The position numbers and the translations under genes are program-made. A stretch of 32,393 bases of DNA from a virus. Below the pieces are notes generated by a model, which worked only from the letters and a program-made list of their open reading frames with translations, had not been told where the DNA came from and searched no databases. Below, one piece after another: positions 1 to 32,393 of this stretch. Every line of letters begins with the position of its first letter. The stretch's first letter is position 1. Location of the stretch: IMG/VR virus record IMGVR_UViG_3300024344_000072, positions 1 to 32,393 of that record; one strand, written 5' to 3'.

Positions 1-155
1 TTAGCTCACTTTTTTATTTATTAAAAATTGTAAATTAAATTCGTTATATAGTTATGAGAAAGAAGTTAAGTGTTCCTAATGATTTAAGCGAAATCACTTT
101 AGGTCAATATCAAAAGTTTCACAAGTTACAAGAGCAAAATGATGATCCCTATTTT
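1..155. repeat. Terminal redundancy, left copy (circular contig)
   Basis: These 155 bases recur at 32239-32393 with one visible difference (T at 29, C at 32267). The repeat starts inside a terminator-like stem and ends inside a coding sequence, so it has no natural boundary. It is best read as assembly overlap of a circular or circularly permuted genome with a unit length of 32,238 bp. The mismatch suggests a mixed population or an error. Confidence 0.9.
41..50 (+). promoter_or_regulatory. Repeated promoter-like element TCGTTATATA, copy 1 (tail operon)
   Basis: TCGTTATATA ends three bases before the ATG at 54. AAATTG lies at 25-30, ten bases upstream. The same core recurs before five other block-starting genes (8621, 10502, 12820, 26861, 29445), and AAATT plus one base sits 10-11 bases upstream in copies 1-4. 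Only a few bases separate it from the start codon, so a promoter here would give a very short leader. A translation-associated role is the alternative. Confidence 0.55.
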
Positions 156-704
156 ATACAATGTAAAATGATAGAGATATTTTGCAATTTAGATGCCACA
201 GCTGTAAGACAAATGAAAATGTCTGATGCAGAAAGAGTGGCTAAAATTATTAATGATATGTTTGAAAAGAAACCACCTCTTACAAATAGCTTTTATTTAA
301 ACAGCAAAGAGTTTGGTTTTATTCCTGATCTTAATAATATAAGTTTTGGAGAATATATTGACTTAGACACACACATATCTAACTGGGATAATATGCACCT
401 CGCTATGAATGTGCTATATAGACCAGTAAAAGATAAGATACAAGACAAATATTTAATAGAAGAATATGACTTAGACAGAAAAGATGAGCTACTAGAAATG
501 CCAATGTCTGCTGTTATGGGGTCAATTTTTTTTTTGTTTCGTTTAGGGAGAGACTTGTCGAGGACTATGGCGAGTTATTTGGAAAAAGAGAGCAAGGTGG
601 ACTTGACAGCGTTTCTAACTTTTCAAGAAAATATGGATGGTTTCAATCAATATATGCACTCTCTCAAGGGTGTGTTGAAAGATTTGAAAATATCACTAAG
701 TTAG
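54..704 (+). CDS. Tail assembly chaperone, zero-frame product (gpG-like)
   Basis: First gene of the tail operon, 216 residues, probably a cytoplasmic chaperone that keeps the tape measure soluble during tail assembly. I infer this from architecture rather than from a strong sequence signature. A run of ten T (526-535) lies in the last third, and from 488 to 793 the -1 frame is also open and protein-like, as in lambda G/GT-type genes. The zero-frame C-terminus after the T-run (LFRLGRDL through LKDLKISLS) also looks like a normal protein, so both products are probably made. The start is the ATG at 54, just after the promoter-like element. Unusually, the tape measure gene is 6 kb downstream rather than adjacent. 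A second, truncated copy lies at 32292 because of terminal redundancy. Confidence 0.65.
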   Translation: MRKKLSVPNDLSEITLGQYQKFHKLQEQNDDPYFIQCKMIEIFCNLDATAVRQMKMSDAERVAKIINDMFEKKPPLTNSFYLNSKEFGFIPDLNNISFGEYIDLDTHISNWDNMHLAMNVLYRPVKDKIQDKYLIEEYDLDRKDELLEMPMSAVMGSIFFLFRLGRDLSRTMASYLEKESKVDLTAFLTFQENMDGFNQYMHSLKGVLKDLKISLS

Positions 705-793
705 ACCTACATCAATGTTTGTACACCCTGACTTATATGAAAGAAAAGCAAGAGATAGAAAATAAAAGAATGAAAAAAAGTTTTAATAAATGA
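488..793 (+). CDS. Tail assembly chaperone -1 frame extension (gpGT-like frameshift product)
   Basis: The -1 frame is open from just after a TGA at 485-487 to the TGA at 791-793. It has no convincing start codon of its own. Translation after the T-run gives a protein-like sequence containing RLVEDYGELFGK, KYGWFQSIYALSQG, ITKLDLHQCLYTLTYMKEK and a lysine-rich end. A -1 slip on the T-run would fuse residues from the ATG at 54 to this extension, giving about 246 residues. The frame ends in an ATGA overlap with the next gene (ATG at 790), exactly as most other genes here are coupled, whereas the zero frame stops 86 bases short. Alternatives are an indel error in the homopolymer or transcriptional slippage. 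Confidence 0.7.
   Translation, partial: ATRNANVCCYGVNFFFVSFRERLVEDYGELFGKREQGGLDSVSNFSRKYGWFQSIYALSQGCVERFENITKLDLHQCLYTLTYMKEKQEIENKRMKKSFNK
526..536 (+). promoter_or_regulatory. Putative -1 ribosomal frameshift site (T10 G)
   Basis: Ten consecutive T followed by G. In the zero frame the codons are ATT TTT TTT TTG, so T TTT TTG (530-536) fits the X XXY YYZ heptamer logic and allows re-pairing of both tRNAs after a -1 slip. The overlapping frames diverge here, and both remain open downstream for more than 150 bases. Confidence 0.6.
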
Positions 794-6661: not shown

Positions 6662-6810
6662 TAAAGAATATAATAGACTTATTACAAATAACAAATGGAG
6701 AAACTGAGAATATTAAGATAGCTCAAGGTAAATATAAACTTGCTGAAAGTTTTAGAGAAATGATAAAACAAATAAAACAAAACAGAGATGCCACAAAAAG
6801 TAGTAGTTGA
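6658..6810 (+). CDS. 50-residue hypothetical protein between tail tip and tape measure
   Basis: It starts with ATG overlapping the stop of the tail-tip gene (ATGA) and runs 23 bases into the tape measure gene in another frame. Its sequence is helical and mildly basic (IDLLQITNGETENIKIAQG, SFREMIKQIKQNRD). Without it, 126 bases would separate two tightly packed genes, and the overlap style matches the rest of the operon. Function unknown. Confidence 0.6.
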   Translation: MIKNIIDLLQITNGETENIKIAQGKYKLAESFREMIKQIKQNRDATKSSS

Positions 6811-8599
6811 TTTTGAGTTACAAGCAAAAGAAGCTGAAAAAAATATAAAGAAATTACAAGACCAAGTAGCTAATCTGCAAAAAAAAGTAGAAGAAGCTAA
6901 TAGTAAGACTGAGAAAGGTGTATCTAAAATTGGTAAAGCAGCAAAAGGTGCTGCAAGTGGGGTCAAAAAAGTCGGTTCTACAATAGGTAACTTAGCTAAA
7001 TTCGCAGGTGTTTTATTTATACTACAAAAAGCATTTGAATTTATCTCAGAAGCAGTTAGAAGTAACCAAACAGTTATGGATGCTCTTACTACTGCAACAG
7101 AGACAGCACAAATTATATTTAATCAAGTAGCTGATACCATATTTAAAAACTCAGAAAACTTTGATGCTCTAGGTAGAATAATGGGTAATCTTCTTACTCT
7201 TGCTCTTACTCCTATTAAACTTTCTTTTTATGCTATTAAAGCAGCGTTATTAGGCGCACAATTAGCGTGGGAACAATCTTGGCTAGGTGGAAACGATCCT
7301 GAAAGAATTAAAGAACTTAAAGCAGAGTTAAATGGTGTAAAAGAAGATGTTATTGAAATAGGTACAGAAGCTCTTGATGCAGGAAAAGGTATTGTTAATG
7401 ATTTTGGAGAAGCAATTTCGGAAGTTAGTAATATAGCAAAAGTAACAACAGAAGCATTAAGCGCAGAAAACATAAAAGCTGCAACAGAAACAGCAAAAGC
7501 TAACAAACAATTAAGAAAAGATGCAGAATTAGCAAGGGTAGCAAATCAAGGTTTAATAGAACAATACGATATACAAGCAGAACAACAAAGACAAATAAGA
7601 GACAATGATCTTATTAGTATTGCCGATAGAATTGAAGCTAATGATAAATTAAAAGCTACTCTTACAAGTCAAAAAGAAGCTATGCTAGAAAATGCACAAG
7701 CAATTTTAGCAGCAGCAGAAGCACAATTTAAACTCACAGGACTAGATGAAGATAACATTGCATTACAAGAAGCTAAAAATGAACTAAAAGCAGTAGAAGC
7801 ACAGATTACTGGTTTTATGTCAGAACAAGAATCAAACAGAATTGCTTTGTTAAAAGAAAAAATGGAGTTAGAAGCTAGTGATACAGAAGCAACAGCAGCA
7901 AGACAAGCAGAACAAAGAGCATTTAATGCAGAAATGATGGAGAATGATATGGCTCGTATGCAACAGATGTTAGATGATTTAGAATTAGAAAAAACAATAG
8001 AAGAAGAAAGACTTACTGCAAAAAGAAATTCATACAAAAAAGGAACACAAGCATATATTGATGCAAACAATGAGTTATTAGACTATCAACAAGCTAATGC
8101 AAACGAGCAAGAAAAGATAGAAAAAGATTTAGCAGTAGCAAAACAAGATGCAATCACAGGTGCTTTAGGTAATCTAGCATCAATAGTAGGTAAAAATAGT
8201 AAATTTGGAAAAGCAATAGCAATAGTACAGGCAATTAGAGATACATTTTCAGGTGCTAACAAAGCGTTATCAGCTAGTCCACCACCTTTTAACTTTATTG
8301 CAGCAGCAGCAGTAGTTGCAGCAGGTATTGCTAATGTAAAATCAATAACAAGCAGTAAAGAACCATCAGCACCAAGTTTTGCAAAGGGTGGAACAGGGGG
8401 TGCTGCTACACCTGCTGTACCTGCGACACCATCTCCAGTAATGCCTGACATAGCATCAGTAGGAGATAGTGGCTTAAATCAACTAGCAAGTGCAATAGGA
8501 GATCAATCACAACAACCTATACAGGCATTTGTGGTTTCTAATGATGTAACAACTGCACAAGGACTGGAAAGAAATATTGTTGATGGTGCAGCAATATAA
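6788..8599 (+). CDS. Tape measure protein
   Basis: 603 residues. Order: an N-terminal coiled coil (about residues 8-45, KEAEKNIKKLQDQVANLQKKVEEA), a Gly/Ala/Lys-rich stretch, a hydrophobic segment (LAKFAGVLFILQKAFEFI, about 70-90), long Ala/Glu/Lys-rich helices (about 170-460), a second hydrophobic Ala-rich region (FNFIAAAAVVAAGIANV), a Gly/Pro linker, and a C-terminus IQAFVVSNDVTTAQGLERN typical of Bacteroidota-phage tape measures. At about 0.15 nm per residue it would set a tail near 90 nm, supporting a siphovirus. It is the last gene of the tail block and is followed by a new promoter-like element. Confidence 0.8.
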   Translation: MPQKVVVDFELQAKEAEKNIKKLQDQVANLQKKVEEANSKTEKGVSKIGKAAKGAASGVKKVGSTIGNLAKFAGVLFILQKAFEFISEAVRSNQTVMDALTTATETAQIIFNQVADTIFKNSENFDALGRIMGNLLTLALTPIKLSFYAIKAALLGAQLAWEQSWLGGNDPERIKELKAELNGVKEDVIEIGTEALDAGKGIVNDFGEAISEVSNIAKVTTEALSAENIKAATETAKANKQLRKDAELARVANQGLIEQYDIQAEQQRQIRDNDLISIADRIEANDKLKATLTSQKEAMLENAQAILAAAEAQFKLTGLDEDNIALQEAKNELKAVEAQITGFMSEQESNRIALLKEKMELEASDTEATAARQAEQRAFNAEMMENDMARMQQMLDDLELEKTIEEERLTAKRNSYKKGTQAYIDANNELLDYQQANANEQEKIEKDLAVAKQDAITGALGNLASIVGKNSKFGKAIAIVQAIRDTFSGANKALSASPPPFNFIAAAAVVAAGIANVKSITSSKEPSAPSFAKGGTGGAATPAVPATPSPVMPDIASVGDSGLNQLASAIGDQSQQPIQAFVVSNDVTTAQGLERNIVDGAAI

Positions 8600-8620
8600 A
8601 TACAAAATTTAACTAAAAAA

Positions 8621-8630
8621 TCGTTATAAA
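8621..8630 (+). promoter_or_regulatory. Repeated promoter-like element, copy 2 (protease)
   Basis: TCGTTATAAA ends three bases before the ATG at 8634, with AAATTT at 8605-8610 exactly ten bases upstream. It sits in the 34-base gap between the tape measure and the capsid protease and probably starts head-gene transcription. Confidence 0.5.
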
Positions 8631-8633
8631 AAT

Positions 8634-9494
8634 ATGAGAATCGTAGAACTTATTTTAGATGAAGCTCAAAGTATGATGGGCATAGAAGCAATCTCAATAG
8701 TAGAAAACCCTGCAATAGAAGAAAATTTTTTAGCATTAAAGTCTGATGAGATAAAACTTGCAGAAGTTAATAAAGAAAAAAAGATATTAATGGGTGCATT
8801 ACTTATTCCTAATAAACCTATTTATAGAAAAGCAGGAAAAGATGAATATTATATATATTTTTCTAAAGACACAGTAGAAAAAGCATCACAATTATACCTT
8901 AAAAATGGTAATCAAAACAATTCAACACTAGAACATAAGCACGAATTAAGTGGACTTACTCTAGTAGAAAGTTGGATAGTAGAAGATACTAAGTTTGACA
9001 AGTCAAGAAAGTATGGTTTAGATGTACCAGTAGGTACTTGGATGGGTGCTGTCAAAGTAAACAATGATGATGTGTGGAATGAGTATGTAAAAACAGGAAA
9101 AGTAAAAGGATTCTCAATAGAGGGTTACTTTGCAGATAAAATGGAAAGACCACAAGATAATACTACTGGACTTAGTGAGCAAGAAGCTGATTTATTACTT
9201 AGTCAAATTGCAGATATTGTAAAAGGAATAGAAATAAATCTTGATAAAGTAGTAGATGATGATTTTGCTATTATTGCAGATAGACTTGCTTATTCCTCAA
9301 AAGAAAAAGCAGAAGAAGTTGCACAGGATATGGGATGTGAGGGATCACACGAACACGAATTAGAAGATAAAGTGTGGTATATGCCTTGTAAACAACATAA
9401 ATTAAAAAAACCTTGTCAAGCAGGATATGAGCAGTATGGTATGAAAATGAAAAATGGTAAAAAAGTACCTAATTGTGTACCTATTAAAAAATAA
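8634..9494 (+). CDS. XkdF-like prohead serine protease
   Basis: 286 residues. The opening IVELILDEAQSMMGIEAISIVENPAIEENF is the standard start of XkdF-type capsid maturation proteases. The likely catalytic region includes histidines at 101 and 103 (LEHKHELSGLTLVESWIVED) and the GFSIEGYF motif with Ser161, matching the His/Ser arrangement of prohead proteases. The C-terminus has an extra Cys-containing tail (CEGSHEHELEDKVWYMPC, then GYEQYGMKMKNGKKVPNCV) also seen in Bacteroidota phages. It probably trims scaffold and capsid proteins in the prohead. It is followed by coiled-coil, scaffold and capsid genes as expected. Confidence 0.8.
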   Translation: MRIVELILDEAQSMMGIEAISIVENPAIEENFLALKSDEIKLAEVNKEKKILMGALLIPNKPIYRKAGKDEYYIYFSKDTVEKASQLYLKNGNQNNSTLEHKHELSGLTLVESWIVEDTKFDKSRKYGLDVPVGTWMGAVKVNNDDVWNEYVKTGKVKGFSIEGYFADKMERPQDNTTGLSEQEADLLLSQIADIVKGIEINLDKVVDDDFAIIADRLAYSSKEKAEEVAQDMGCEGSHEHELEDKVWYMPCKQHKLKKPCQAGYEQYGMKMKNGKKVPNCVPIKK

Positions 9495-9500
9495 TATAAG

Positions 9501-9878
9501 ATGATAAACAAGACCAACATTAATAAAGTTTTAAAAAAAATTAACACAGAAGAAGTAAATTTATCTGTGGCAAAAGTTAAACTTTCTAAAATGGAAGATT
9601 TAGAAGATGCAGTAGGAACAGCAGCTATGATGCAAGATGCTTTTGAAGAAGCGTATGATGATGCACAAGTGTTAGTAATTAAAGCATCAGACATTATAAG
9701 GTTTGACTGGTCAGATGCAATTACAGAAGCAGAGGGTGCTTTACAAGAATTAGAGGTTGCATTTAAGGAATTAGGAGTAGATGAACCAAGTGAAGTAAAA
9801 CAATACAGAAAACAAATAGAAGAATTAGAAAACGAAAGAGTTATTGCAGATAAAAAATTAGATGGAATAGGTAAATAA
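9501..9878 (+). CDS. Coiled-coil head-region protein, paralog A
   Basis: 125 residues, mostly helical and acidic. It begins MINKTNINKVLKKI, almost the same as the next gene (MINKHNINKVLNKL), and both end with a helix-turn of the form ELGVDEP / ELGIKPEQ followed by a Y-K element. These are tandem duplicates that have diverged. The position between protease and scaffold suggests a minor head or assembly protein. No enzymatic motif. Function unknown. Confidence 0.6.
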   Translation: MINKTNINKVLKKINTEEVNLSVAKVKLSKMEDLEDAVGTAAMMQDAFEEAYDDAQVLVIKASDIIRFDWSDAITEAEGALQELEVAFKELGVDEPSEVKQYRKQIEELENERVIADKKLDGIGK

Positions 9879-9885
9879 ACAAATT

Positions 9886-10320
9886 ATGATTAATAAACAC
9901 AACATAAACAAAGTATTAAACAAACTCCCTAAAGATAAGGTTGAGTTAGAGAAAGTTCAATTATCTGTTTCAGATGATTTAGGTAAAATGGTGTCTGCTT
10001 TAGAAAAAGCAGCTCAACAAGAAAAAGAATTATTATCAGAAATTAAAGAAGTAACTAAAGTAGAAAAAGAAGTTCTAAAATCTATTAAACAAATAGAAAA
10101 TAGAAGAAATAAGTTATACGATAAAGCTGATAAAATTATTAAAAAGATAGATTCTGAATTTGATGATGTAAATGATCTAATAATTAAAGCAGATCAAGCT
10201 GCTAAAGAATTAGGAATTAAACCTGAGCAAATACCAAATTACAAAAAAGTAGATTCTGCTTATGGTAAAATCGGAGAATTAGTATTAAATGACCTTTTTC
10301 TTGACAATCCATACTTTTAA
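9886..10320 (+). CDS. Coiled-coil head-region protein, paralog B
   Basis: 144 residues, strongly predicted coiled coil by eye (LGKMVSALEKAAQQEKELL, IKEVTKVEKEVLKSIKQIE). It shares its N-terminal 14 residues and the region around ELGIKPEQIPNYKK with the preceding gene, so the two are paralogs. The gap between them is seven bases. Function unknown; a minor virion or assembly role is inferred from position. Confidence 0.6.
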   Translation: MINKHNINKVLNKLPKDKVELEKVQLSVSDDLGKMVSALEKAAQQEKELLSEIKEVTKVEKEVLKSIKQIENRRNKLYDKADKIIKKIDSEFDDVNDLIIKADQAAKELGIKPEQIPNYKKVDSAYGKIGELVLNDLFLDNPYF

Positions 10321-10325
10321 TATAA

Positions 10326-10478
10326 ATGTCTAAAGAAACATATATACCAAGTAGAACAAGTCCAAAGGGAAGTACAAGGGGTTGTCTATGTAAAGACAAA
10401 GATACTTACTCTAGGGAGTGCTGTGATGGCTCATTATGGGCGCAAGGCATAGGAGTAATAAGCAGAGTTGCAAGTTAA
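10326..10478 (+). CDS. 50-residue cysteine-rich mini-protein
   Basis: The ATG lies six bases after the previous stop. The peptide contains GCLCKDKDTYSRECCDGSL, with four cysteines in a CxC ... CC pattern, then WAQGIG. The CLCxDxTYSxxCCDGxLxAQGIG layout is one I recognise from Bacteroidota phages, where it sits near head genes. The cysteines might bind a metal or form disulfides. The role is unknown. Confidence 0.7.
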   Translation: MSKETYIPSRTSPKGSTRGCLCKDKDTYSRECCDGSLWAQGIGVISRVAS

Positions 10479-10501
10479 AAATGCAAAATTAAATTTATAA
10501 A

Positions 10502-10511
10502 TCGTTAAATA
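10502..10511 (+). promoter_or_regulatory. Repeated promoter-like element, copy 3 (scaffold)
   Basis: TCGTTAAATA ends seven bases before the ATG at 10519. AAATTA at 10486-10491 lies ten bases upstream, the same spacing as copies 1 and 2. It would drive the scaffold and capsid genes. Confidence 0.45.
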
Positions 10512-10518
10512 AGTAATT

Positions 10519-11199
10519 ATGAAAAGTAGTGAAATGATAAACAAAATTCGTACACTTTTAAATATTCAAGTACAGCTTGAAGAAAGGAAGTTAGAAAATG
10601 GTACTGTTGTAGAAGCAGAATCGTTTGAAAAAGGGCAAGAAATCTTTATCGTAACAGAAGATGAAAAGGTTGCAATGCCAGTTGGCGAATACATCTTAGA
10701 ATCAGGCGAGTTAGTCGTTGTTGAAGAAGAGGGTGTAATTGCTGATGTTAGAGAAGTTTCTGATGAAGCTCCTGAAAAAGAGGAAGTGGAAGCAGAAGAA
10801 AAGTCCGAAGAAGAAAAAGAGGACTTGTATAAATTCTATGAAGAATTAAAAGACAGAGTTTCTGATTTAGAAAAAGTGGTTGAAGAAATGAGATCATACG
10901 AAGATAAAGAAGAAGTTGAAGCAGAAGCAGAAGATGGTTCTCCTAGACAACCTAAATCAAGAACTATAAAAGAAGAATTTTCTGAAAATAAAATTGAAGT
11001 AAACGAAGAAGAAGTCGTTGAAAATAAAGTTTCAGAAAAAGAAGTTAAAGAAGAATTGAAAGAAGAATTATCTGCACCTGCTGCTGAACCGATTAAACAT
11101 AGTCCTGAAGCATTAGTAAAAAAAGATAAATTTCAATTTTCACAAAGAAGGAAACTATCAACTTTAGATAGAGTTTTAAGTAAAATAAATAATAAATAA
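10519..11199 (+). CDS. Probable capsid scaffolding protein
   Basis: 226 residues, very acidic. The N-terminal 75 residues form a compact beta-rich domain (VQLEERKLENGTVVEAESF, EIFIVTEDEKVAMPVGEY, ELVVVEEEGVIADV). Then follows a long Glu/Lys-rich region with a coiled coil (LYKFYEELKDRVSDLEKVVEE) and a basic C-terminus (FSQRRKLSTLDRVLSKI). An acidic helical middle with a basic capsid-binding end, immediately upstream of the major capsid gene and downstream of the protease, is the usual scaffold layout. It is probably removed or cleaved during maturation. Confidence 0.7.
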   Translation: MKSSEMINKIRTLLNIQVQLEERKLENGTVVEAESFEKGQEIFIVTEDEKVAMPVGEYILESGELVVVEEEGVIADVREVSDEAPEKEEVEAEEKSEEEKEDLYKFYEELKDRVSDLEKVVEEMRSYEDKEEVEAEAEDGSPRQPKSRTIKEEFSENKIEVNEEEVVENKVSEKEVKEELKEELSAPAAEPIKHSPEALVKKDKFQFSQRRKLSTLDRVLSKINNK

Positions 11200-11209
11200 A
11201 TTTTAAAAA

Positions 11210-12136
11210 ATGGCGTTATCAATTACATCAACTTATGCAGGGGAATTTGCAGGAAAATATATAGCAGCAGCTCTCCTTTCTTCAAACACTATTGAACAAG
11301 GTGGTATTGAAGTTAAACCGAACATTAAATTAAAAGAAGTTATCAAAAAGGTAGCTACAAGTGGACTTATTGCAAATTCTAGTTGTGATTTTACTGATGC
11401 AGGAAATGTTACTCTTACTGAGAGAATCATACAACCTGAGGAATTTCAAGTAAACTTACAATTATGTAAAACTCCTTTTGTGTCTGACTGGGAAGCAGCA
11501 CAGATGGGTTATTCAGCATTTGAAAATATGCCACCTAAATTTTCAGACTTTTTTATCGGTCATATTTCAGCAGAAATAGCAGCGAAAAATGAGCAAAACA
11601 TTTGGGTAGGTGCAAATGCAACAGCAGGAGAATATGATGGTCTAGTTACACTAGCAAAAGCAGATTCAGATGTTTCTGACATTACAGGAACTACTGTTAC
11701 TCACGCTAATGTTATTGCAGAAATGGGTAAAGTAGTAGATGCTTGTCCTAATGCAGTTTATGGTAAAGAAGATTTGAACCTATATGTTTCTAAAAATGTA
11801 GCGAAAGCGTATGTAAGAGCTTTAGGTGGTTATTCTATTGGCGTTGGTGCTAATGGTATTGATGATAAAGGTCAAATGTGGTACTCAGGACAGGGTCTTT
11901 CATTTGATGGTGTCAATATCTTTATGGCTAATGGTCTTTCTGACAACCAAATGATGTTAGCACAAAAATCAAATTTATATTTTGGAACAGGTCTATTAAA
12001 TGATTTAAATCTTGTAAAAGTTTTAGATATGGCAGACTTAGATGGTTCTCAAAATGTGAGATTTATTGCTAGATACACAGCAGGTGTTCAGTATGGAATC
12101 GGAAGCGAAATTGTACTTTACGATCCAACAGTATAA
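11210..12136 (+). CDS. Major capsid protein
   Basis: 308 residues, which is normal for an HK97-fold capsid protein. It lies 10 bases after the scaffold and is followed by its own terminator-like hairpin, as expected for a highly expressed gene. Segments I associate with Bacteroidota-phage capsid proteins include LTERIIQPEEFQVNLQLCK, DWEAAQMGYSAF and the later IFMANGLSDNQMMLAQKSNLYFGTGLLND. The C-terminus GVQYGIGSEIVLYDP is a typical final strand. A Walker or enzymatic motif is absent. Codon usage appears slightly richer in GC than the neighbouring tail genes. Confidence 0.8.
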   Translation: MALSITSTYAGEFAGKYIAAALLSSNTIEQGGIEVKPNIKLKEVIKKVATSGLIANSSCDFTDAGNVTLTERIIQPEEFQVNLQLCKTPFVSDWEAAQMGYSAFENMPPKFSDFFIGHISAEIAAKNEQNIWVGANATAGEYDGLVTLAKADSDVSDITGTTVTHANVIAEMGKVVDACPNAVYGKEDLNLYVSKNVAKAYVRALGGYSIGVGANGIDDKGQMWYSGQGLSFDGVNIFMANGLSDNQMMLAQKSNLYFGTGLLNDLNLVKVLDMADLDGSQNVRFIARYTAGVQYGIGSEIVLYDPTV

Positions 12137-12150
12137 ATAATTTATAAAAA

Positions 12151-12179
12151 GGGGTAGGGTTTTACTCTACCTTTTTTTT
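12151..12179 (+). terminator. Rho-independent terminator after the capsid gene
   Basis: The stem GGTAG/CTACC is extended by G-T and A-T pairs, has a loop of about nine bases and is followed by eight T (12172-12179). It begins 15 bases after the capsid stop. Confidence 0.7.
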
Positions 12180-12201
12180 AACCTTTTAAAAATATAATAA
12201 T

Positions 12202-12726
12202 ATGGCTTGTACATTAACAAAAGGGAGAGAGCTACCTTGTAAAACAGGGGTAGGTGGCATTAAATCTATCACATTTGCTGATTATGGTACTTTAGGTGCT
12301 TTAACTATTGCAAATGAAATGGTAACTGATTTTGGTGGAAGTCCAACATTTATGAAGTTTGATGTAAAGGGTACATCAACTTTAGATACTACTGTAACAA
12401 GTAGTAGAGAAAATGGAACGACTTTTTACGAAACATCAGTAGTAATGAACCTAATCTTTCAAGAAGAAAAAACACAAGCTGAGATTAAATTACTTGCAGT
12501 ATCAAGACCTCATATTATAGTTGAAGATTATAATGGTAATTTTAGACTGGTAGGTAAAGATCACGGCTGCGAATTAACAACTGGTACATTTTCAAATGGT
12601 GCAGCTATGGGAGACCTTTATGGGTACTCTTTAACATTTGTTTCACAAGAAACAGAAGCACCTGACTTTGTTACAACAGCAGCATACAATGCAGAATCAC
12701 AGGGTACACAAATAGATGTAAACTAA
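12202..12726 (+). CDS. Probable major tail (tube) protein
   Basis: 174 residues, beta-rich. It begins ACTLTKGRELPCKTGVGGIKSITF and contains TVTSSRENGTTFYETSVVM, SRPHIIVEDYNGNFRLVGKD and GAAMGDLYGYSLTFVSQETEAP. This ordering (Cys-containing N-terminus, a NGTTF turn, a DxNGN turn, a GDLxGY strand) is one I associate with tail tube proteins in Bacteroidota siphophages. It is flanked by terminators on both sides, consistent with high independent expression. A decoration protein is the alternative. Confidence 0.6.
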   Translation: MACTLTKGRELPCKTGVGGIKSITFADYGTLGALTIANEMVTDFGGSPTFMKFDVKGTSTLDTTVTSSRENGTTFYETSVVMNLIFQEEKTQAEIKLLAVSRPHIIVEDYNGNFRLVGKDHGCELTTGTFSNGAAMGDLYGYSLTFVSQETEAPDFVTTAAYNAESQGTQIDVN

Positions 12727-12769
12727 TCTGCTATCTCAGCACTAATAAACTCTTAATATTAGTATATCA

Positions 12770-12795
12770 AAGCACTCTTTTCAGGGTGCTTTTTT
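12770..12795 (+). terminator. Rho-independent terminator after the tail-tube gene
   Basis: An eight-pair stem, AAGCACTC with GGGTGCTT (one G-T pair), with loop TTTTCA and a T-run to 12795. It ends the transcript of the probable tail tube gene. Confidence 0.8.
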
Positions 12796-12819
12796 ATTTT
12801 ACAAATTGACTTATTTTAA

Positions 12820-12829
12820 TCGTTATATA
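12820..12829 (+). promoter_or_regulatory. Repeated promoter-like element, copy 4 (portal block)
   Basis: TCGTTATATA lies four bases before the ATG at 12834, right after a terminator. AAATTG at 12803-12808 is eleven bases upstream. A terminator followed by this element strongly suggests a new transcription start. Confidence 0.6.
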
Positions 12830-12833
12830 CATA

Positions 12834-13277
12834 ATGATAGTATTGACTACAAATTCATCACAAACACTTAGTGTAATACCTAGAGAATATTTAGGGTCAT
12901 TTACTATTGATGTAAGAGATGCTTCGTTAAACAAAACTTTTTCATATTTTGAAGATACAGTTACTACAAGTGGAAACTATATGCAATTTACAAATAGTTA
13001 TGTCGATGCTAGTGGTAATACAATATTTAAAGAAGCAAGATTTTATGATTTAGATTTATATGCAGATTTTAATTACTGGAATACTAATTTAAGTCTATGG
13101 GAAATGTATGATGAAATATGGCAAACAGATAGCAACCAAAAAGAAAGAGTTTATAAAGATAGAATATTTGTTACTGACCAAGACATAGATCAGAAAAACG
13201 ATAATGACCATTATGGTATTAACAAGGATCAATATGTAACTAATAATTCATTTGATAATGAGTATATTGTAATATGA
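12834..13277 (+). CDS. Structural-type protein upstream of portal
   Basis: 147 residues, no signal peptide. The first 90 residues are beta-rich (SQTLSVIPREYLGSFTIDV). The C-terminus carries WEMYDEIWQTDSNQKERVYKDRIFVTDQ, followed by an Asp/Asn-rich end finishing NEYIVI. The YKDRIFVTDQ and NEYIVI blocks recur in Bacteroidota phage virion regions. Its stop overlaps the portal ATG (ATGA), so it is expressed with the portal. Specific function unknown. Confidence 0.55.
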   Translation: MIVLTTNSSQTLSVIPREYLGSFTIDVRDASLNKTFSYFEDTVTTSGNYMQFTNSYVDASGNTIFKEARFYDLDLYADFNYWNTNLSLWEMYDEIWQTDSNQKERVYKDRIFVTDQDIDQKNDNDHYGINKDQYVTNNSFDNEYIVI

Positions 13278-15169
13278 AAAAAAGAAAAAGAAATAGTTTA
13301 GGACAATTTGCTACAAATTCAAAGTCTGAAATTAGTCTAGTAAATTTAAGTAGTTATACCACACCTATAATGAAAGAACAACCCAATAAAGACTGGGTTA
13401 AGTTTGGAGAAGATAATGATTATTTTCAATATATCTTAGATAGATACAATGGTAGTGCAACAAATCACGCTGCTGTAAATGGCATAGCACAACAAATATT
13501 TGGAAAAGGTTTAAATGCCTTAAATGCTAATAAAAAACCTGAGCAGTACGCTAAAATGGTCTCTTTATTTAAAAAAGACTGTGTTAGAAAAATTGCTTAT
13601 GATTTTTATTTGTTTGGTCAAGCAGCTATACAGGTTGTTTATTCAAAAGACAGAAAAACATTAGCGACAGCTGAGCATTTTCCAGTAGAAACATTAAGAT
13701 CAGAAAAAGCGAATGAAAAAGGAGATGTAGAAGCATATTATTATTTTAAAGACTGGTCTAAAATTAAACCTAATGAAGAACCTAAAAGAATAGCTGCATT
13801 TGGTACAAGTAACGAAGCAATAGAAATACTATACATAAAACCATACAAAGCAGGTTTATACTATTATAGTACACCATCTTGGAATGGATGTATTCAGTAT
13901 TGTGAGCTAGAAGAAGAAATAAGCAATTACCATATTAACAATATACAACAGGGTTTAAGTCCTACAATGTTAATTTCAATGCACAATGGAGTACCGAACC
14001 CTGAAGAAAGAAGATTATTAGAAAGCAAAATAGCACAAAAATTTAGTGGGTCAAGTAATGCAGGTAAATTTATACTTAGTTTTTCAGATTCTAAAGAACA
14101 AGAACCAAGTTTAACACCTGTACAATTATCTGATGCACACCAACAATATGAATTTTTAAGTAATGAGTGTTCTAGGAAAATAATGATAGGTCATAGAATA
14201 GTTAGTCCTTTTCTTTTAGGTATTAGAGAAAATGGTGGATTTGGTTCTAATGCAGATGAAATTAAAACTGCAAGTTTGTTGTTTGACAATACTGTTATTA
14301 GACCTCTACAAGAGATTTTAATAGATTGTTTTGACAAAATATTAGCTTATAATGATATTAGTCTAAAACTTTATTTTGTAACCTTACAACCTCTTGAATT
14401 TACTGATATAGATACAGACTTACAAGATGATGAAGATATAGAGGAAGAAACAGGAATACAAATGAGCAAAGAAAAACCTGAATTAGATGATAAATTAGGT
14501 GGAGAAATTGCTGATGAATTAATAAACTTAGGTCAGACAGAAGAAGAACTATTAAAAGACTATGATTTAGTAGATCAAAGAGCAGTAGATTACGAGCAAG
14601 ATCACGAATTAGATGGCGTTATACAAGAGCTTAATAAAGAAAAGAAATCTACACTATCAAAAATATATGAATTTGTAAGTACAGGTATAGCTAGAAAAAC
14701 AAAAGAAAGCAAACAAGATGGAACAAGTAAACAATCAGTAGAAAAACTAAGTAAATTTTTAGTAAGGTATGTTTACAATCCTACAAAGACAGGTTCTAAT
14801 TCAAGGGAATTTTGTAAAAAAATGGTTAGGGCAAAAAAGGTATATAGAAAAGAGGACATTTTGGAAATGACAAAAAAAGCAGTAAACCCTAAATTTTCTA
14901 AAGGTGGAAAAAAAGGTACAGGCAAATATTCTATATGGTTATACAAAGGGGGAAGTCGCTGTCAGCATAGATGGTATAGACAGACATATCTAAAAAAATG
15001 GGATAATGCAGGTATGGGAAAACAAATAACATCAGGACAAGCTAAAAGTTTAGGTTTTAAGTTTCCTAGAAATGCACAAAAAGTACCAGTAGCACCTAAA
15101 GATATGAGATATAAAGGGTACACAAAAGCGTACTATGATAAAATGTTTGGCAAGAAGAAAAAGAAATAA
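13274..15169 (+). CDS. Portal protein with C-terminal Cys/His domain
   Basis: 631 residues. The first ~400 residues look like a phage portal: NKDWVKFGEDNDYFQYILDRY near residue 40, NHAAVNGIAQQIFGKGL, a stem region with SPTMLISMHNGVPNPEERR, and IVSPFLLGIRENGGFGSNADE. After an acidic linker (about 385-450) comes a distinct basic domain (about 480-600) with SREFCKKMVRAKKVYRKEDI, a YSIWLYKGG turn and RCQHRWYRQTY, ending in a poly-lysine tail. That tail domain also occurs in other phage head proteins and carries potential metal ligands (the Cys in REFC, and the Cys and His of RCQH). The portal forms the head vertex and DNA gate. The fused tail could mediate capsid assembly. Confidence 0.75.
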   Translation: MKKRKRNSLGQFATNSKSEISLVNLSSYTTPIMKEQPNKDWVKFGEDNDYFQYILDRYNGSATNHAAVNGIAQQIFGKGLNALNANKKPEQYAKMVSLFKKDCVRKIAYDFYLFGQAAIQVVYSKDRKTLATAEHFPVETLRSEKANEKGDVEAYYYFKDWSKIKPNEEPKRIAAFGTSNEAIEILYIKPYKAGLYYYSTPSWNGCIQYCELEEEISNYHINNIQQGLSPTMLISMHNGVPNPEERRLLESKIAQKFSGSSNAGKFILSFSDSKEQEPSLTPVQLSDAHQQYEFLSNECSRKIMIGHRIVSPFLLGIRENGGFGSNADEIKTASLLFDNTVIRPLQEILIDCFDKILAYNDISLKLYFVTLQPLEFTDIDTDLQDDEDIEEETGIQMSKEKPELDDKLGGEIADELINLGQTEEELLKDYDLVDQRAVDYEQDHELDGVIQELNKEKKSTLSKIYEFVSTGIARKTKESKQDGTSKQSVEKLSKFLVRYVYNPTKTGSNSREFCKKMVRAKKVYRKEDILEMTKKAVNPKFSKGGKKGTGKYSIWLYKGGSRCQHRWYRQTYLKKWDNAGMGKQITSGQAKSLGFKFPRNAQKVPVAPKDMRYKGYTKAYYDKMFGKKKKK

Positions 15170-15684: not shown

Positions 15685-15779
15685 GATATAAACCTAAAAA
15701 GAATAACATAGAGAAATTAAAAACATTTTTGAAAAAAAAAAGAAATAAACAAAAGATAAATTATGGCAAGTCTATTTAA
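15681..15779 (+). CDS. 32-residue very basic peptide (tentative)
   Basis: The ATG overlaps the connector stop (ATGA) and the frame continues 17 bases into the fibre gene. Its sequence is almost all Lys, Arg and Asn (RYKPKKNNIEKLKTFLKKK). The coupling supports it. The low complexity and short length argue for caution, because AT-rich leader DNA could give this by chance. Confidence 0.4.
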   Translation: MRYKPKKNNIEKLKTFLKKKRNKQKINYGKSI

Positions 15780-24296: not shown

Positions 24297-24336
24297 AAGA
24301 GGGTAGGGTCATAGTATCTTTCCCTCTTTTTTTTTT
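24297..24336 (+). terminator. Terminator between SSB and ATPase genes
   Basis: Stem AAGAGGG/CCCTCTT with an 18-base loop, followed by a T-run to 24336. It ends the recombination transcript, so the ATPase gene at 24348 needs either readthrough or a promoter within the short gap. Confidence 0.75.
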
Positions 24337-26884: not shown

Positions 26885-27004
26885 ATGGTAATAAGCAACG
26901 AAACATTTGAACACTTTAGAAAGCAACAAAAGAAAAAACAAAAATATATAAAACTCTTAAAGAAAGAGGGGTATATAGTATATGAAAAAAAAAAGACTAC
27001 CTAG
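26885..27004 (+). CDS. 39-residue basic mini-protein
   Basis: First gene after the promoter-like element. Lys-rich and helical (FEHFRKQQKKKQKYIKLLKK). It ends a few bases before the next ATG. Real by position and spacing, but low complexity limits certainty. Function unknown. Confidence 0.45.
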   Translation: MVISNETFEHFRKQQKKKQKYIKLLKKEGYIVYEKKKTT

Positions 27005-29615: not shown

Positions 29616-29871
29616 AAAAAGTAATGGTGGTATAAGGAAAGGTGCAGGGAGACCTAAAAAAGTAGAAGAAGAAAAACTAATAGAAAAGCTAGATAGTTTA
29701 ATTGACAATGATGAGGTTATAAAAACACTAGGTAAAAAGATTAAAGAGGGGTCAGATAGAGCTATGAGCTTGTACTTTGGATATAGATATGGTAAACCAA
29801 AAGAATCAGTAGATATTAATTCTAGTGAGGGTTTTAATATCAATTTTAAAGACCTGATTAACTTTAAATGA
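29605..29871 (+). CDS. terS: Terminase small subunit
   Basis: 88 residues. N-terminal GRKSNGGIRKGAGRPKK (basic, AT-hook-like) followed by helices EKLIEKLDSLIDNDEV and DRAMSLYFGYRYGKPKESVDI. The RKGAGRPKK start and YRYGKPKE block are characteristic of small terminase proteins in Bacteroidota phages. It recognises phage DNA for packaging. Its stop overlaps the large subunit ATG (ATGA). Confidence 0.75.
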   Translation: MDGRKSNGGIRKGAGRPKKVEEEKLIEKLDSLIDNDEVIKTLGKKIKEGSDRAMSLYFGYRYGKPKESVDINSSEGFNINFKDLINFK

Positions 29872-31073
29872 TAGACATAAACAAAAAGTATGCACCTATC
29901 ACACAAACAGATTCAAGATACTTTATATTAACTGGGGGTAGAGGATCAGGAAAATCTTTTAGTATAAATGTCTTATTAGTTCTTCTCACATACGAAAAAG
30001 GACATACTATATTATTTACTAGATATACTTTAGCTTCTGCATACATTTCTATTATTCCTGAATTTATAGACAAGCTAGAGCTGCTTAATATATTTGATGA
30101 CTTTTATATAACTAAAGATGAAATCAAAAATAAGCGTTCAGGAAGCAAGATAATATTTAAGGGTATTAAGACATCAAGTGGAGACCAAACAGCTAACCTG
30201 AAGTCATTACAGGGCGTTACAACCTTTGTTTTAGATGAAGCAGAAGAATTAACCTCAGAGGACACATTTGATAAAATAGACCTATCTGTGAGACAGCAGG
30301 GAAGTCATAATAGAGTGATCCTAATACTAAACCCTACAAGCAAAGAACATTGGATATATAGAAGATACTTTGAGGACAAAGGAATACAAGAGGGGTCTAA
30401 TACAACCAAAGACAATATTACATATATACATACAACCTACATAGACAACAAAGAAAACCTATCACAAAGCTATTTACAACAAATAGAGAATATTAAGAAA
30501 AGGAGACCTGAGAAATACAAGCATCAAATGTTAGGTGGGTGGTTAAGTGCAGCAGAGGGCGTTATATTTACTAATTGGAATATAGGTAAATTTAAAGAAG
30601 TAGGTAAAACAGTATATGGGCAAGACTATGGATTTGCAGCAGACCCTAGCACATTAGTTGCAACCAGTATAGACATATCTAATAAGGTTATATATTTAAA
30701 AGAATGTTTTTACAAACCTAGACTAACAACATCAGAGCTTGTTACACTAAATAAAAGGTTTGCAGGAGAATCACTAATAGTAGGAGATTCAGCAGAACCT
30801 AGACTAATCTCAGAAATAAGATCACATTGTAATATAGTGCCAAGTATAAAAGGACAGGGTTCTGTTACTTTTGGTATTAGCTTATTGCAAGACTACGATT
30901 TAATAATAGATGAGGATAGTATAAACCTTATTAAAGAGCTTAACAATTATGCTTGGTTAGAACGAAAATCTAACACACCTATTGATAAATTTAATCACTT
31001 ATTAGATGCAATTAGGTATGCTGTAACATATCAATTACAAAATAAAAACAGAGGTAATTACTATATTTCTTAA
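29868..31073 (+). CDS. terL: Terminase large subunit
   Basis: 401 residues. Walker A GGRGSGKS (23-30), Walker B VLDEAEEL (121-128) with catalytic Glu124, and a motif-III-like LNPTSKEHW (154-162) form the packaging ATPase. The nuclease half has candidate acids Asp253 (GQDYGF), Asp307 (VGDSAEP) and Asp380 (HLLDAIRY). Length is typical. It packages DNA into proheads at the portal. The gene is followed by a 285-base non-coding region rather than by portal, which is unusual. Confidence 0.9.
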   Translation: MIDINKKYAPITQTDSRYFILTGGRGSGKSFSINVLLVLLTYEKGHTILFTRYTLASAYISIIPEFIDKLELLNIFDDFYITKDEIKNKRSGSKIIFKGIKTSSGDQTANLKSLQGVTTFVLDEAEELTSEDTFDKIDLSVRQQGSHNRVILILNPTSKEHWIYRRYFEDKGIQEGSNTTKDNITYIHTTYIDNKENLSQSYLQQIENIKKRRPEKYKHQMLGGWLSAAEGVIFTNWNIGKFKEVGKTVYGQDYGFAADPSTLVATSIDISNKVIYLKECFYKPRLTTSELVTLNKRFAGESLIVGDSAEPRLISEIRSHCNIVPSIKGQGSVTFGISLLQDYDLIIDEDSINLIKELNNYAWLERKSNTPIDKFNHLLDAIRYAVTYQLQNKNRGNYYIS

Positions 31074-32196: not shown

Positions 32197-32253
32197 AGTG
32201 AGCAGACATACATATTTTCCAAGTGGTTTGGTGTGTGTTTAGCTCACTTTTTT
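32197..32253 (+). terminator. Terminator before the tail operon
   Basis: AGTGAGC (32197-32203) pairs perfectly with GCTCACT (32242-32248) and a T-run to 32253 follows. The loop is long (38 bases) and can form a small internal CCAA/TTGG pair. It lies just before promoter-like element copy 1, so it likely ends the terminase/RNA transcript. Confidence 0.5.
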
Positions 32254-32393
32254 ATTTATTAAAAATCGTAAATTAAATTCGTTATATAGTTATGAGAAAG
32301 AAGTTAAGTGTTCCTAATGATTTAAGCGAAATCACTTTAGGTCAATATCAAAAGTTTCACAAGTTACAAGAGCAAAATGATGATCCCTATTTT
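32239..32393. repeat. Terminal redundancy, right copy
   Basis: Repeats 1-155 with one mismatch at 32267. It includes promoter-like element copy 1 (32279-32288) and the first codons of the tail chaperone. Confidence 0.9.
32292..32393 (+). CDS. Tail assembly chaperone, partial second copy
   Basis: The first 34 codons of the gene at 54, repeated because of terminal redundancy and cut off by the end of the window. It is not a separate gene. Confidence 0.9.
   Translation, partial: MRKKLSVPNDLSEITLGQYQKFHKLQEQNDDPYF

Follow-up and report, generated by a model that had tools for sequence, protein, structure and literature searches.

Known two-product genes and the layout of this locus

In tail assembly chaperone pairs of the lambda G/GT type, the short product binds the tape-measure protein while the extension binds the tail-tube protein, and the ratio of the two products is needed for tails. 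Lambda G/GT and P2 E/E+E' both make a short and a -1 extended product from one tail-module gene, and the gene described here has a layout that would allow the same. A preliminary description of this locus had regarded its T-run as an unusual slippery site; T-runs in this role are already known, since P2 E/E+E' likewise slips on one, T6G (GGT TTT TTG; PMC3931495), and it is the invariant T9/T10 that would be new. RNA-polymerase slippage in bacteria has been published for runs of nine A or T and, in mxiE, for Tn with n above 8 (PMC5009743, PMC3711429). The genes studied in this respect, Shigella mxiE and spa13, Thermus dnaX and Citrobacter tssM1, resemble the gene described here in their long A/T runs (~9-11), which give rise to transcripts in several frames and to two products (PMC5009743, PMC3711429, PMC4256274). 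They are, however, cellular genes in which slippage was shown experimentally, whereas here a gene of a phage structural module is concerned and the argument is drawn from comparative data. Searches of the open-licence literature yielded no account of a phage tail chaperone that uses transcriptional slippage, and an earlier one is possible.

The window, by which we mean the whole stretch of 32,393 nt that was analysed, is from a phage of marine Flavobacteria, and the gene of interest lies in its tail module (Table 1). Positions 1-155 and 32239-32393 form a direct repeat of 155 nt (99% identical), and the contig is therefore probably a complete genome, either circular or terminally redundant. 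It also encodes TerL, a portal, an XkdF-type protease, a tape-measure protein (TMP) and an S74-chaperone tail fibre.

Table 1. Coordinates of the two-frame gene, its T-run and the neighbouring genes in the window
Feature	Position	Strand	Remarks
Zero-frame ORF, 216 aa	54..704	+	stop TAG 702-704
Conserved N-terminal domain (~residues 1-157), then zero-frame tail of ~55 residues	within 54..704	+	
T10 run (putative slip run), then G536	526..535	+	zero-frame codons ATT TTT TTT TTG
Candidate ribosomal heptamers	527..536	+	T_TTT_TTT (527-533), T_TTT_TTG (530-536)
Open stretch in -1 frame	488..793	+	bounded by TGA 485-487 and stop TGA 791-793
-1 part predicted to be translated after the slip, 85-residue C-terminal domain	~536-790	+	stop 791-793
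Dual-coding stretch, 168 nt	537..704	+	selection on both frames
+1-frame TAG	544..546	+	shortly 3' of the run
Next gene, 156 aa	790..1260	+	PHROG 30964, without assigned function; start overlaps the -1 stop as ATGA
TerL	29868-31073		~1.2 kb upstream of the gene, across the circle
TMP gene	6788		6 kb downstream of the gene
Protease gene	8634		after TMP
Possible major capsid protein gene	11210		after TMP
Portal gene	13274		after TMP

The zero frame and the -1 frame are both open and diverge at the T10 run, as the preliminary description had it, and the coordinates were confirmed on the sequence. Its ATGA overlap between the end of the -1 frame and the next gene was also recovered, and its estimate of about 170 dual-coding bases agrees with the 168 nt counted; the gap 3' of the zero-frame stop is present, with a size of 85 nt (705-789) instead of 86. 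The zero-frame protein matches PHROG 32199 (E=1.4e-22), and in its AlphaFold model pLDDT is >90 for most of residues 10-170 and <50 for residues 179-216; the model of the C-terminal domain is poor (pLDDT 65). Unlike in lambda G/GT and P2 E, a T9/T10 run takes the place of the heptamer, the gene is not located directly before the tape-measure gene, and a zero-frame tail of ~55 codons is dual-coding with the -1 product; homology to these genes is not detectable.

Conservation of the two frames and of the T-run

The queries against viral contigs and genome contigs were the zero-frame protein, the C-terminus in the -1 frame and an alignment of each; a phage collection and Flavobacteriales genomes were searched as well. 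At least 354 loci with both ORFs were found, among them at least 233 non-redundant ones, and three more distant copies in host genomes bring the set to at least 236 non-redundant relatives. Most are metagenomic contigs; the set comprises viral contigs, MAGs, prophages, the cultured Nonlabens phages P12024L/S and a Flagellimonas onchidii prophage. Three weak matches were judged spurious and left out, one because it sits among elongation-factor and ribosomal-protein genes (L364) and two for having neither phage context nor a T-run (L366 and L367). In 236/236 relatives listed, the C-terminal ORF is shifted by -1 against the N-terminal one, and an automatic frame scan found a fused frame in 0/354 loci listed. 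Long host contigs carrying homologues agree with the isolate phages in this frame relation. Even the most distant homologue (2e-7), on a 2.97-Mb contig of a Flavobacteriales genome, keeps the -1 C-ORF and the T9/T10 run.

In P12024L/S the homologous gene likewise follows TerL and has a -1 C-ORF and a T9 run; it differs in being annotated as two hypothetical genes (P12024L_40/_41) and in having a zero-frame tail of only ~25 codons. A distant fold relative of the N-terminal domain is gp10 of Flavobacterium phage 6H (Duneviridae; BFVD E 7.7e-6), which is encoded a few genes upstream of the tape-measure gene. The end of 6H gp10 has only T6C and its -1 frame stops at once, so that 6H does not share the switch. 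In 6H, gp10 (10047-10927, minus strand, in locus L357) is followed by an unannotated 300 nt in which a different frame may hold a C-terminal ORF. Because the PHROG of 6H gp10, 25418, has 293 positions, related phages may carry a fused form.

Selection acts on both frames in the overlap. Synonymous codons were drawn at random with one protein held fixed, and the survival of the other frame was scored: with the -1 protein fixed, the zero frame was open to the observed stop in a mean of 1.2% of draws (median 0.25%), and with the zero-frame protein fixed, the -1 frame survived in 0.5%. In 64 independent pairs of relatives, with every sequence used once, substitutions per site at the three codon positions were 0.041/0.024/0.169 upstream, where only the zero frame is coding, 0.023/0.064/0.066 in the overlap, and 0.045/0.014/0.125 downstream, counted in the -1 frame, where only that frame is coding. 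In the overlap, each frame thus restrains the third codon position of the other, which would otherwise be free. Most relatives have a zero-frame tail of 53-60 codons and a few have one of 22-38; given this variable length and the low-confidence model of residues 179-216, the -1 domain is the end with the wider conservation. Thus, comparison across relatives, the check that the preliminary description had proposed, finds both frames and the T-run conserved and the overlap constrained in both frames, and its claim of a -1 shift with two genuine C-termini is supported.

The run at the junction is T9 or T10 in 236/236 relatives listed (T10 in locus L239), and none of these 236 has a run of <=8 T or >=11 T there. 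The core is always FF, encoded as TTT TTT, preceded by 1-3 T and followed by 0-3, in the combinations (2,2), (2,1), (3,1), (1,3), (3,0) and (1,2) of T before and after; combinations summing to 7, 8, 11 or 12 T are absent among the relatives listed. The run thereby occupies all three codon registers, at both lengths, while the residues around it vary (SIFFLY, ILFFYH, KVFFWT, MFFFYR, ISFFFR, IAFFLQ, LGFFLN). On the tree of the N-terminal domain, the 5' border changes 13 times, the 3' border 14 times and the total length five times, every time between 9 and 10. On permutation of the 3' extensions, lengths that are all 9-10 had P = 2e-4 for 29 cluster representatives at 60% identity and P = 5e-6 for 63 at 70% identity; a tree-corrected compensation test gave 0 contrary pairs (median p 0.125), with too few independent pairs for significance. 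As a background, other ORFs at these loci (502,542 nt in total) contain 268 T6, 81 T7 and 5 T8 runs and no run of T9 or longer; 58 of the T7 runs are in phase to give T_TTT_TTT, and A9/A10 runs occur 14 times inside these ORFs. Since T9 or longer is absent elsewhere and the heptamer T7 is common, it is a length above 8, and not the ribosomal heptamer, that marks the site. The +1 frame stops 4-11 nt past the end of the run in 232/232 relatives scored, and this nearby stop may be a by-product of dual coding.

Proposed origin of the -1 product

Based on these comparisons, we suggest that RNA-polymerase slippage on T9/T10, rather than a ribosomal shift, quite probably gives access to the -1 frame. 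In this model, RNA polymerase would add one U, or drop two, at the run in a fraction of transcripts, and ordinary translation of the altered transcripts would enter the -1 frame and end where the next gene starts, in the ATGA overlap, yielding a longer product of ~246 aa with its C-terminal 85 residues read in the -1 frame. Unaltered transcripts would yield the plain zero-frame product of 216 aa, while transcripts with the other shift would end immediately at the +1-frame stop. We infer that both products are made; that they share their N-terminus, arise mainly via polymerase slippage and most likely form a tail-chaperone-like pair is a probable reading. Slippage is favored because the length is fixed in three registers, T9 is absent elsewhere, T7 is freely used and RNA structure is lacking. 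An A/T homopolymer of about nine or more at the frame junction, conserved in length, is what slippage calls for, and it is found in 236/236 relatives listed.

The main alternative is a classical -1 ribosomal shift, in which the tRNAs in the P and A sites would slip on T_TTT_TTT or T_TTT_TTG, and the residues that flank the heptamer would make the run long as a side effect. Both routes reach the same -1 frame, and every T9/T10 run contains T_TTT_TTT, which makes a ribosomal shift possible at each site: this heptamer is present in every relative listed and every register seen, and it conforms to X_XXY_YYZ in the zero frame. Part of the run length also has protein reasons, namely codons for hydrophobic residues (T as second base) in front of FF and aromatic or Leu codons (TAC/TAT/TGG/TTR) behind it. 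A stimulatory downstream structure is frequent and not obligatory in ribosomal -1 frameshifting. The tail-gene frameshifts described in the sources consulted are ribosomal, some phage frameshifts operate without RNA structure (PMC5009743), and phage P2 shifts on GGT TTT TTG. However, a ribosomal shift leaves unexplained why the total is 9-10 T across three registers, and lineages with AGT, GCT or GGT before FF have a longer 3' side instead; a ribosomal slip at the T TTT TTG heptamer of the preliminary description leaves the same point open to question, and polymerase slippage accounts for it. Moreover, other genes at these loci often contain T_TTT_TTT, and no conserved RNA structure was detected upstream or downstream of the run in 60 relatives (mean z near 0; consensus fold energy -1.3 kcal/mol). 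We therefore regard a ribosomal origin as less likely, while noting that, as judged from the heptamers, ribosomal shifting may add to polymerase slippage or replace it.

The remaining alternatives dispense with a programmed shift and are far less probable. If the -1 ORF were a separate gene with an internal start, the overlap would be an ordinary gene overlap, which is how GenBank presents P12024L_40 and P12024L_41; this is very improbable, as the fixed T9/T10 exactly at the frame junction would be left unexplained and the conserved -1 protein starts at the run, where the alignment has no conserved start codon. Poly-A/T runs can vary through slipped-strand mispairing (PMC3711429), and in a phase-variable gene replication would alter the run length and switch a fused protein on and off; the absence of a fused state from the 236 genomes listed, and the constancy of T9/T10 with the same frame relation over long divergence, make this highly implausible. 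The possibility of a single-frame gene with a miscounted T-run is negligible and is refuted by the data from the relatives. Homopolymers are error-prone and the relatives are mostly metagenomic contigs, but compensation in the flanking codons preserves the -1 relation in T9 and T10 lineages alike, the isolate phages are in line with the long host contigs, 0/354 loci listed are fused, and selection acts on both frames over ~55 codons. Relatives in which the two frames are simply one frame with another T count, the case that the preliminary description had named against itself, number 0/236 among those listed. Thus, because the C-ORF is always in the -1 frame and never fused, and because both frames are selected in the overlap, this is a real, conserved two-frame gene, and neither an indel error nor phase variation.

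Function of the pair and implications

A G/GT-like role is our best guess for the pair and a likely one, because the gene lies in the structural module, 6 kb upstream of TMP, and has a layout for two products. The G/GT gene layout is present, with the conserved -1 C-ORF of the 236 relatives listed and with both frames under selection, and by analogy the predicted products most likely act as tail assembly chaperones whose ratio matters. The name tail assembly chaperone, which the preliminary description had given to the gene, is without sequence or fold support beyond the gene neighborhood and weak matches, i.e. PHROG 166 'tail protein' (E 5e-4), Phage_TAC_7 (E 0.08) and a BFVD entry annotated 'tail assembly chaperone' (E 0.07). 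Lambda G, P2 E and A118 gp15 gave no significant hhalign match, and Foldseek and VIA-align gave no useful fold match in the PDB, an outcome that is no proof of a novel fold. The gene is not positioned between a major tail protein gene and TMP; it follows TerL. A chaperone function is thus best read as predicted from gene context.

The gene order in 6788-15169 is unusual, with tape-measure, protease, possible major capsid and portal genes all 3' of the tail genes. Between the genes starting at 790 and 2992, the region 1262-2992 holds three genes without Pfam match, two of which start signal-peptide-like as judged by eye. The apparent P12024L counterparts of the genes at 790 and 2992, genes 42 and 43, adjoin, and the three genes in 1262-2992 may therefore be an insertion in the tail module. 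Further T10/A10 runs in the window, at 24327-24336, 15732-15741 and 26985-26994, are all located between listed genes.

Taken together, the comparisons lead us to lean towards the broader reading that, in an old and large Flavobacteria phage lineage, polymerase slippage determines the ratio between two proteins of the tail module. This reading comprises an invariant T9/T10 run in a dual-coding gene, a chaperone-type switch that has passed to the polymerase from the ribosome, and a stop nearby in the third frame. The T9 threshold, set against the background of other genes, would be a direct and testable prediction. If the reading is true, two products can be obtained by the same logic at a different stage of gene expression, as is already known for dnaX, and annotation misses or splits this gene in hundreds of marine phages.
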